Of a stretch of DNA of 33,017 nt, positions 14,084-16,564 are shown in pieces. Numbering within the stretch: the first letter of the stretch is position 1; each line of letters begins with the position of its first letter. The position numbers were made by a program, and so were the translations under genes. The notes under the pieces are model-generated. The model saw only the letters and a program-made list of their open reading frames with translations. It did not search any database and was not told the DNA's origin. The stretch spans positions 1-33,017 of the forward strand of contig MFVE01000006.1 in NCBI GenBank assembly GCA_001785985.1, in the 5' to 3' direction. The stretch is from Candidatus Nomurabacteria bacterium RIFCSPLOWO2_01_FULL_42_17 (GTDB lineage Bacteria; Patescibacteriota; Minisyncoccia; Phycocordibacterales; UBA9973).

Positions 14084-15562
14084 ATGTCTTCAATTGATGA
14101 AATTAGAGATGCGAGAATAAAAAAACTTGAACTTTTACGCAGCCGTGGCGTAAATCCGTATCCAGCGGAAGCAAATAGAGAAATTTCTCTAAAAGAGGCG
14201 ACAGAAAAATTTGATGATCTAGAAAAGCCTGCCCGCCGTGGAGGGAAAAAAGAAACCAAGTGGATCTCTGGCAGGATCATGTCTATTCGCGGCCAAGGCG
14301 CTATTATTTTTATAACTCTCAATGATGGTACAGGAACTTTTCAAGGTTTACTCAAAAAAGATATTTTAAGCGATGATAAATTTGATTTTTTTAATGCTGT
14401 CGTCGACATTGGGGATTTTATAGAAATTCAAGGCAGTTTTTTTACGACCAAAAGAGGGGAAAAAACACTAGAAGCAAAAGATTGGCGGATGCTCAGCAAG
14501 AGTCTGCGACCACTGCCGGAAAAGTGGCATGGCTTGCAGGATGTAGAAGAAAGATTTCGCAAACGCTACTTGGATATTTTAATGAATCCAGAACTCAAAG
14601 AACTTTTTGAAAAGAAGGCGAAGTTTTGGAGCGCTACTCGTAATTTTTTGAAAAAAGAAAATTTTCTGGAGGTGGAAACTCCGACGCTAGAGATCACGAC
14701 TGGCGGGGCGGAGGCCAGACCGTTTCAGACGCATCACAATGATTTTGACATAGATGTTTTTATGCGTATATCTGTCGGCGAGCTTTGGCAGAAGAGATTG
14801 CTGGCAGCAGGTTTTCCGCGAGTTTTTGAGATCGGCAGAGTCTACAGAAATGAAGGTTCGAGTCCGGAGCATACGCAAGAATTTACTGGTATGGAATTTT
14901 ATGCTGGTTATATGGACTACAGGGAAGGCATGGAGTTTACAGAAAAAATGATAAAAGAAGTTGCCTTGGAGACATTTGGGACATTAGAATTTGAAACACA
15001 CGGACACAAAGTTGACTTATCAAAAAAATGGGAACGCATTTCGTATGTTGAGACGATAAAGAAAATGCTCGATGTGGATGTGCTCTCTTCAACTGAGAAA
15101 GAAATGATGAAAAAATTAGATGAGGTTGGAGTGAAATACGAAGGCGCGAACAAGGAACGCTTGACCGACTCGCTCTGGAAACATTGCCGCAAGCAGATCG
15201 TGGGACCGGTGTGGCTCGTCGATGTGCCGAGGTTAGTTTCTCCGCTGTCAAAAGCCAAACCGGAAAATCCACTACTCACCGAACGTGTGCAATTGATTTT
15301 AGCTGGCGCCGAGATGACCAACGGATTTTCTGAATTAAATGATCCGATAGATCAATCTGAACGTTTTGAAGTTCAAAGAAAATTAATTGAGAAGGGAGAT
15401 GAAGAAGCGATGATGCCGGACGATGAATTTGTAGAGATGCTGGAGCATGGCATGCCTCCGGCTTTTGGTTTTGCTTATGGCGAAAGATTGTTCGCATTTC
15501 TAGTAGACAAACCACTACGCGAGACGCAACTTTTCCCATTGATGAAGCCAAAGAAAGAATAA
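14084..15562 (+). CDS. lysS: Lysine-tRNA ligase, class II
   Basis: 492 aa. An N-terminal OB fold binds the anticodon (~55-165, ISGRIMSIRGQGAIIFITLNDGTGTFQGLL). The class II core follows: motif 1 near FLEVETPTL, motif 2 FEIGRVYRNEGSSPEHTQEFTGMEFY, and AGAEMTNGFSELNDPIDQSERF, which is LysRS-specific. Motif 3, normally GGLGIGIDRL, reads AFGFAYGERLFAFL here: the Arg is kept but the glycine pattern is altered. A PARRGGKK stretch (49-56) before the OB fold is encoded by GC-rich sequence and may be a decayed palindrome insert. AsnRS/AspRS identity is excluded by the SELNDP block. Confidence 0.95.
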   Translation: MSSIDEIRDARIKKLELLRSRGVNPYPAEANREISLKEATEKFDDLEKPARRGGKKETKWISGRIMSIRGQGAIIFITLNDGTGTFQGLLKKDILSDDKFDFFNAVVDIGDFIEIQGSFFTTKRGEKTLEAKDWRMLSKSLRPLPEKWHGLQDVEERFRKRYLDILMNPELKELFEKKAKFWSATRNFLKKENFLEVETPTLEITTGGAEARPFQTHHNDFDIDVFMRISVGELWQKRLLAAGFPRVFEIGRVYRNEGSSPEHTQEFTGMEFYAGYMDYREGMEFTEKMIKEVALETFGTLEFETHGHKVDLSKKWERISYVETIKKMLDVDVLSSTEKEMMKKLDEVGVKYEGANKERLTDSLWKHCRKQIVGPVWLVDVPRLVSPLSKAKPENPLLTERVQLILAGAEMTNGFSELNDPIDQSERFEVQRKLIEKGDEEAMMPDDEFVEMLEHGMPPAFGFAYGERLFAFLVDKPLRETQLFPLMKPKKE

Positions 15563-15566
15563 AAAT

Positions 15567-15779
15567 ATGGAACGAAAATCATCAAAAATAGATAAGAAAG
15601 ACGTTCAACGTCCGCCAACACTTGAAGAAGCACAAAATATGCTGGCGTTTGCAGATTCACAGATCGAAAAATTAAAAGCAACCGGCAGTGAAGACAAACG
15701 TCTCCTTGAATATTTAAATCAGAAAAGAGATAAAGCAATCAAAGCAATAGCTAGGATTGAGGGGGAAAGTAAAAAATAG
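15567..15779 (+). CDS. 70-aa charged helical protein, unknown
   Basis: Starts MERKSSKIDKKDVQRPPTLE and is mostly predicted helix (EEAQNMLAFADSQIEKLKA, then LLEYLNQKRDKAIKAIARIEGESKK), so a helical hairpin or short coiled coil is likely. No known family recognised. The start is 4 nt after the lysS stop with no Shine-Dalgarno, so it is probably cotranscribed and coupled. It ends right before the intrinsic terminator. Confidence 0.7.
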   Translation: MERKSSKIDKKDVQRPPTLEEAQNMLAFADSQIEKLKATGSEDKRLLEYLNQKRDKAIKAIARIEGESKK

Positions 15780-15785
15780 AAAAAA

Positions 15786-15808
15786 CGGAAGCAAGGCTTC
15801 CGTTTTTT
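15786..15808 (+). terminator. Intrinsic terminator of the greA/lysS region
   Basis: CGGAAGC-aag-GCTTCCG, 7 perfect bp, then six T; five A precede it, so it can also act on the minus strand. Confidence 0.92.
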
Positions 15809-15821
15809 GTTTTAGGAAAAT

Positions 15822-15986
15822 GAAAATCCCCGGAACCAGAGATTCTCGGGGAAATTTTTTGACGCTTTTTTTAAGCGTCGATAGTTTTACAGTGGGACCA
15901 CCCCACCAGGAACCTGGACTTCATGCACTGAAGCCAGACTGATCTGATGGGGTGCCCACTGCTGGCGGGAGGACGCCGATGGGAAC
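15822..15986 (-). ncRNA. Candidate structured small RNA with four-way-junction core
   Basis: No ORF is supported here. On the minus strand a consensus promoter (15993-16021) would start an RNA near 15986. In order the RNA has a GGCG/CGCC hairpin showing TCCTCC in its loop (15964-15977), then a 14-bp helix (15955-15961 and 15948-15954 with 15890-15896 and 15899-15905, two-base bulge). This encloses three hairpins separated by 0-1 nt: CAGA-tcag-TCTG, CTTCA-gtgca-TGAAG and CCAG-gttc-CTGG. A GACGCTT/AAGCGTC hairpin (15861-15879) follows, then CCCCG...CGGGG (15828-15851) followed by ATTTTCATTTT as a probable terminator. It is not SRP RNA, tmRNA, RNase P or a tRNA by their signature sequences. Confidence 0.65.
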
Positions 15987-15992
15987 ACACAC

Positions 15993-16021
15993 AATATAAA
16001 ATACAATACAGGAAAAGTCAA
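15993..16021 (-). promoter_or_regulatory. Minus-strand promoter for the candidate RNA
   Basis: TTGACT (16016-16021), exactly 17 nt, TATATT (15993-15998). There is no minus-strand gene before the candidate RNA, so it appears dedicated to it. Divergent from the mraZ promoter. Confidence 0.75.
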
Positions 16022-16054
16022 TAAAAGTTATCCCCAGATGGGGCTTGTTTTTGT

Positions 16055-16092: not shown

Positions 16093-16107
16093 GTGGGAAA
16101 AAGTGGG
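16093..16107 (+). promoter_or_regulatory. MraZ binding boxes
   Basis: Two direct GTGGG boxes at 16093-16097 and 16103-16107, ten bases apart (GTGGGAAAAA then GTGGGAAATA). This matches the known MraZ operator, TGGG boxes with 5-nt spacers. They lie just downstream of the promoter, as expected for autorepression. Only two clear boxes are seen; three is more usual. Confidence 0.85.
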
Positions 16108-16120
16108 AAATAATAATTTT

Positions 16121-16564
16121 ATGTTGATCGGCGAATACATTCACACAATAGACGAGAAAAACAGAGTTTCCATGCCGGCAAAGTTTCGCCAAGAGCTCGG
16201 CAAGAAAATTATTATTACTCCCGGACTTGGTCAATGCTTGTTCATTTTCACAATCAAAGAATGGCAAAAAGTTTCCCAAAAACTTTCCGACTCGGATTCT
16301 GATTTATCTTTTTTAAAAGCTGATCAGAGAAGTTTCAACCGATACATGTTTGGTCGCGCGGCGGAAGTAGAGATAGATTCTATCGGCAGGATCTTGATTC
16401 CGGATTTTCTCAAAGAAAGAATCGGTTTGAAGAATTCGGCGGCGGTCATCGGAGTCAAAGACAGAGTAGAAATATGGAACGAGAGCGCATGGTCGGAGCA
16501 AAAGGCAATCGTGGAAAAGCAGGCGGAGCAGTTGGCGGAAAAACTTGGGAATGAAAAATCATGA
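16121..16564 (+). CDS. mraZ: Transcriptional regulator MraZ
   Basis: 147 aa from MLIGEYIHTIDEKNRVSMPAKFR; a longer frame upstream would run through the promoter and boxes. It has two tandem AbrB-like halves, each with a D-x-(K/I)-x-R-(V/I)-x-(M/I)-P block: DEKNRVSMPAKFR and DSIGRILIPDFLKE. MraZ forms a ring and represses its own operon. It overlaps rsmH by 4 bp (ATGA). Confidence 0.95.
   Translation: MLIGEYIHTIDEKNRVSMPAKFRQELGKKIIITPGLGQCLFIFTIKEWQKVSQKLSDSDSDLSFLKADQRSFNRYMFGRAAEVEIDSIGRILIPDFLKERIGLKNSAAVIGVKDRVEIWNESAWSEQKAIVEKQAEQLAEKLGNEKS

Follow-up and report, generated by a model that had tools for sequence, protein, structure and literature searches.

A predicted small noncoding RNA gene back to back with the mraZ division operon in one genus of Nomurabacteria

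The window analysed here is a 33,017-nt stretch that forms part of contig C6 in a genome of ~670 kb (95% complete). It carries lysS, a 70-aa open reading frame (ORF), an intergenic element on the minus strand, and then the mraZ-rsmH-PBP-mur division (dcw) operon on the plus strand. Relatives of its mraZ in named records belong nearly all to Candidatus Nomurabacteria (Patescibacteria); what looked like an in-frame TGA in a few MraZ sequences proved to be the normal C-terminal stop. Between the element and mraZ lie a DnaA-box-like site, two GTGGGA repeats, and the -10 region of mraZ. The repeats resemble the known type of MraZ operator. The coordinates of all features are collected in Table 1.

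Table 1. Features of the lysS-mraZ region, in window coordinates
Feature	Position	Strand	Basis or remark
lysS (class II LysRS), convergent neighbour	14084..15562	+	
70-aa ORF behind lysS	15567..15779	+	without Pfam match
Terminator-like hairpin, bidirectional, after the 70-aa ORF	15780..15808	.	terminator scan (minus); T-run on both sides
Predicted small RNA gene, ~167-172 nt	15815..15986	-	fold; shared anatomy in relatives
P3, C/G hairpin of predicted intrinsic terminator, then TTTTCATTTT	15827..15852	-	covariation; terminator scan
P2 element AUC-GACGCUU-AAAAA-AAGCGUC, constant module	15861..15882	-	consensus AUC-GGCG..CGCC-A
P1, GC-rich extended imperfect hairpin	15889..15962	-	outer helix 8+11 bp plus inner helix
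5' hairpin GGCG-UCCUCC-CGCC	15964..15977	-	loop complementary to GGAGGA Shine-Dalgarno
-10 hexamer TATATT	15993..15998	-	TATANT in most RNA-bearing relatives
-35 hexamer TTGACT	16016..16021	-	-35-like hexamer at the same place in 14/16 RNA-bearing loci
DnaA-box-like site TTATCCCCA	16028..16036	+	between RNA promoter and mraZ promoter
Two GTGGGA direct repeats, 10-nt period, putative MraZ operator	16093..16108	+	~72/75 relatives
mraZ, divergent neighbour	16121..16564	+	Pfam MraZ

The first-pass annotation had proposed a structured RNA gene on the minus strand of this gap, with a promoter reading TTGACT-17-TATATT. We found this promoter (16021-15993) to be of the sigma-70 type with 10/12 matches, a level reached in 0/200 shuffles of the 75 nt adjoining the DnaA box. 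Over 16 RNA-bearing loci, the summed promoter score was 148 against a shuffle maximum of 122, and 14 of these loci had the 17-nt spacer. The gap had also been described as free of any supported ORF, and this agreed with our reading: the two longest minus-strand ORFs in the element measure 39 and 44 aa, and neither is preceded by a visible Shine-Dalgarno sequence. At the other end, the C/G stem and T-rich run of the earlier description are present as P3 and TTTTCATTTT, and the terminator scan agrees. The start of the RNA was taken to lie 7 nt past the -10 hexamer, and its end was placed at the T-rich tail. By these signals the element has a predicted promoter of its own and a predicted 3' intrinsic terminator, as a free-standing small-RNA gene should.

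The minus strand at 15822-15990 folded to -78 kcal/mol (z -8.4, 0/200 shuffles as good), while the exact predicted RNA gave a z of -10.8 and the plus strand of the element reached -71 kcal/mol (z -5.9). The best structure consists of a 5' hairpin followed by P1, P2, and P3. P1 occupies the site at which a compact four-way junction (15890-15961) had been proposed. That junction can be drawn, but at -38.4 vs -46.6 kcal/mol for the extended hairpin it is 8.2 kcal/mol worse, with a probability of ~6e-7 under the Turner model; relatives carry an equivalent P1, and the claim was dropped. The additional hairpin that had been placed downstream corresponds to P2 (15861-15879). The 5' hairpin, absent from the first-pass annotation, is not kept in relatives; its sequence echoes the P2 motif AUCGGCG..CGCCA.

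Because BLASTN with the element as query produced chance matches only among 60 relatives, the orthologous gaps were located through mraZ, which was found in 78/80 genomes searched in the genus. Up to 3 kb upstream of mraZ was compared in 76 of those genomes. The lysS-mraZ synteny holds genus-wide, with lysS upstream of mraZ in nearly all and a gap of 103 to 2567 bp. A recurring layout was observed on the minus strand: a DnaA box, TTGACT-17-TATANT, a GC-rich hairpin, AUC-GGCG..CGCC-A, a C/G hairpin, and a T-rich tail. Some 17-23 of ~75 same-genus gaps have it in the same orientation, a count that is approximate because the labels were assigned partly by eye. The RNA is thus a case in which plain BLASTN shows no conservation despite a kept structure, promoter, and 3' module.

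The first-pass annotation had suggested a covariance model of the lysS-mraZ gap in relatives as a check, and comparison of these gaps showed a conserved promoter and a 3' module with covarying pairs. The model, R1, describes the P2-P3 module and was seeded with nine hand-trimmed sequences from the locus. The trimming was done by hand because MAFFT misaligned P2 in untrimmed modules, so the evidence was taken from matches outside the seed. Non-seed members at the same place were L083 (44.0 bits), L171 (40.1), L110 (39.7), L185 (34.2), L117 (30.2), and L119 (27.6); L083 lies near a contig end adjoining lysS and shows the full P1-P2-P3 anatomy. Where lysS is over 1 kb distant (L116, L126, L139, L166), the module is still found with the promoter on the mraZ side. 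R1 matches beyond the genus (6/148 genomes of the order at E<=1e-5) were set aside as resembling generic gene-end terminators, and those above 30 bits had the same ordinary look; for this reason, we regard the RNA family as found only in this genus. Weak R1 matches within the genus but away from mraZ were also terminator-like. A pattern search for P2 in the window's own genome was too loose to be of use, with 29 matches vs 17 in the reversed control, and a scan of viral contigs found no mraZ relatives. The element is single-copy in its own genome.

In 22 module sequences, 96.7% of the P2 and P3 pair cells were standard pairs, and 11/12 pairs had cells changed on both sides (57 cells in all), as counted on an alignment fitted to the covariance model. 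Slid controls of the same alignment gave at most 51% paired, 4 pairs, and 6 cells. Because the alignment was model-fitted and P3, as a terminator, would covary anyway, it is the P2 result that carries weight: compensatory changes were observed in 5/5 of its pairs. A covarying secondary structure is therefore kept in relatives. The strand is indicated by G.U cells outnumbering A.C cells (12 vs 4) and by better folding of the minus strand than the plus in 14/19 RNAs. For the 5' domain of module-bearing loci, z ranged from -2.0 to -7.7 (median about -4.8, GC ~0.56), compared with a median z of -0.1 and a GC of 0.34 at the same place in 45 control gaps without the RNA. The sequences of P1 barely align across species (the window's own vs L123: z 3.9), so homology of P1 is mostly positional, and P1 differs even between sister genomes. 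Sequence comparison shows the promoter, the strand, P2/P3 base pairing, and a recurrent P1.

Distribution was evaluated on a mraZ-rsmH tree. The RNA was found in 8/8 genomes of the window's own clade (SH-aLRT 99) and in 12/13 genomes of the next clade (support 96). Its label is clustered on the tree, with 11 changes vs a shuffled mean of 18, and 1/500 shuffles was as low. Since about two thirds of the genus have no RNA at the lysS-mraZ site, it is not essential genus-wide. Other species have small ORFs or nothing in the slot. Minus-strand small ORFs stand in the place of the RNA in L125, L128, L134, L136, L141, L152, L174, and L177. The slot ORFs measure 42-104 aa and are often hydrophobic, most being led by a Shine-Dalgarno sequence and several having transmembrane-like stretches; of the small ORFs that were compared with Pfam, none reached a curated cut-off. 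In L134, L152, and L174, a small ORF is followed by the same P2-P3 module, and tandem copies occur at the slot in L166, L126, and L174, those in L166 and L126 being of the RNA. A 400-nt highly structured RNA lies in the same slot in L185 (197-600) and L111, with the same promoter and the same 3' end position, and between these sister genomes 20/87 of its pairs show compensatory double changes. Judged by eye, a protein encoded at the slot in L185 (611-3061) resembles class I LysRS, its HIGH- and KMSKS-like motifs reading HVGS and KMSSSKG; the class II lysS of relatives appears to have been replaced in place here by a non-orthologous gene.

The DnaA site of the window, TTATCCCCA, likewise absent from the first-pass annotation, is a degenerate one-base variant of the consensus TTATCCACA of relatives. 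The exact box was present at this place in 73/75 relatives, compared with 3 copies in 184 kb elsewhere, and was mostly 3-6 nt from the -35 of the RNA. Almost throughout the genus, ~77-198 nt separate it from the mraZ start downstream. As the box is near-invariant and adjoins the -35 of the RNA, control of both divergent promoters by DnaA is plausible, and its position suggests that DnaA may control the division operon in Nomurabacteria.

We conclude that the minus strand at 15,815-15,986 is probably a free-standing small noncoding RNA gene (probability roughly 0.8). The proposal that this lineage has a new family of small RNAs, put at ~165 nt, gained support from conserved position, covariation, and the lack of an Rfam match. 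Among the readings that give the sequence another role, one would deny it any product: P3 and P2 would be a bidirectional terminator guarding lysS and mraZ against read-through, and P1 a chance GC-rich inverted repeat or what is left of a small mobile element. P3, with its A-rich linker and T-rich tail, does look bidirectional, and the plus strand is nearly as stable as the minus, but the dedicated conserved promoter with its 17-nt spacer, together with a module that accompanies this promoter instead of lysS, makes this unlikely. The element is, moreover, single-copy, P2 is kept on top of a sufficient terminator, and P1 recurs in module loci. A cis-acting plus-strand leader of mraZ, akin to the actinobacterial mraW motif, would fit the position upstream of mraZ and the good plus-strand fold. 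It is extremely improbable: the mraZ -10, the MraZ boxes, and the DnaA box intervene in nearly all relatives, placing the element outside the mraZ leader, while the strand comparison (minus better in 14/19, more G.U pairs) and the lack of an RF01746 match also count against it.

A transcribed RNA could act in several ways, or be one tenant among many. RNAIII and the Rsa RNAs block Shine-Dalgarno sequences through a C-rich loop, and the UCCUCC loop of the 5' hairpin, predicted to be fully unpaired, could serve a trans-acting antisense RNA in the same manner. We consider this very unlikely, as a clearly accessible CCUCC was observed in just 3/19 members, at differing places, and the idea was dropped. 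Hardly any more weight, and if anything slightly less, goes to a 6S-like RNA whose P1 would mimic melted promoter DNA and sequester RNA polymerase. Its length, its long irregular hairpin with shape kept and sequence not, and the lack of any Rfam 6S RNA in 26 same-genus genomes in which controls were found are in keeping with such a role; against it stand the lack of an element match at E<=10, a P1 without a large central bubble, and the failure to find the element at this site in roughly two thirds of the genus. A broader reading treats the hypervariable lysS-mraZ gap as a slot for accessory cargo: structured RNAs or small proteins, often of the membrane, would turn over there under diversifying selection, for example in phage defence or host-cell interaction, and the RNA would be one such cargo and not a conserved regulator. 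The spread of gap lengths from 103 to 2567 bp, the Shine-Dalgarno-led ORFs without Pfam family that occur elsewhere in the genus, some with the same P2-P3, the tandem copies, and the unlikeness of P1 between sister genomes all point that way. However, the window's own clade keeps the RNA in every genome and looks vertical, and the slot proteins tested with Pfam show no defence or mobile-element family, leaving this reading a real possibility that we do not favour.

For the free-standing RNA gene, the sigma-70-type promoter, back to back with the promoter of mraZ and the dcw operon and with the DnaA box between them, would start the transcript, and the intrinsic terminator P3 would end it before lysS. 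The RNA would comprise a shape-conserved, sequence-variable P1, then the constant AUC-[GGCG..CGCC]-A-rich P2, and then P3. Because P1 keeps its pairing but not its sequence, a target-pairing role for it is unlikely, and the AUC-P2 element with its A-rich flank is the obvious candidate for contacting a protein or an RNA. Tentatively, we picture a stable trans-acting RNA in which a protein or RNA partner would bind the constant AUC-P2 element, P1 would act by its shape, and DnaA at the adjacent box would tie synthesis to the replication and division cycle. A more far-reaching and rather doubtful version sees a fast-evolving RNA family working through shape and AUC-P2, under DnaA-box-centred control shared with dcw, in a slot whose occupants are interchangeable. 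If true, DnaA would set the output of the RNA and of the division genes together, and the slot would be filled elsewhere by the 400-nt structured RNA or small membrane proteins.

Keeping a noncoding gene in a genome of ~670 kb is costly. This RNA gene has comparative, covariation-backed support, and it sits at the division operon's control region, adjoining a nearly invariant DnaA box. Our searches of the literature turned up no publication on Nomurabacteria small RNAs, nor one that names noncoding RNA in Patescibacteria by means of covariance models. The gene offers a concrete target for metatranscriptomics.

The first-pass annotation had seen no signature of SRP RNA, tmRNA, RNase P RNA, or 6S RNA and had proposed an Rfam search, and the search bore this out: neither the window nor 14 relatives gave a match to the element, and the element with its flanks had none at gathering scores and none below E 0.29 with lax filters. 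A whole-genome Rfam pass (G000) found tRNAs, rRNA pieces, tmRNA (RF00023, on C5), RNase P RNA (RF00010, on C2), a SAM riboswitch, and a group I intron, with the tmRNA and RNase P RNA thus lying apart from the element. The intron is at L295:3469-3688 (G000:C2), and the riboswitch, exactly at its gathering threshold, is at L281:5109-5223 (G000:C5). Bacterial SRP RNA is likewise a small GC-rich hairpin RNA, yet this identity was rejected, since the element has no RF00169 match; RF00169 was not detected in 80 genus genomes, a motif scan of G000 found no Ffh/FtsY-like GTPase, and the lack of SRP in Parcubacteria has already been published (PMC4508563).

With 6S RNA (RF00013), the element shares its length, its long irregular hairpin, and a shape kept over sequence. 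It differs in having small internal loops only in P1, where 6S RNA has a long duplex opened by a large bubble at its centre, in giving no covariance-model match, and in not being universal in the genus. The mraW motif (RF01746), a putative cis-regulator of Actinomycetales only (PMC2864571), also adjoins mra/dcw genes, but it lies in the leader of the mra operon on the same strand, whereas our element, at which the motif had no match, is on the opposite strand and outside the mraZ leader. The closest parallel in kind is with the RNA families that comparative genomics has brought to light (Weinberg et al. 2010, PMC2864571; later sets), which are likewise intergenic and structured, with promoter and terminator, and defined by covariation. 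Compared with these, the element is confined in our searches to one genus of Nomurabacteria, and its main hairpin shows next to no conservation of primary sequence. The family is new and restricted to this lineage, but does not represent a new kind of system.
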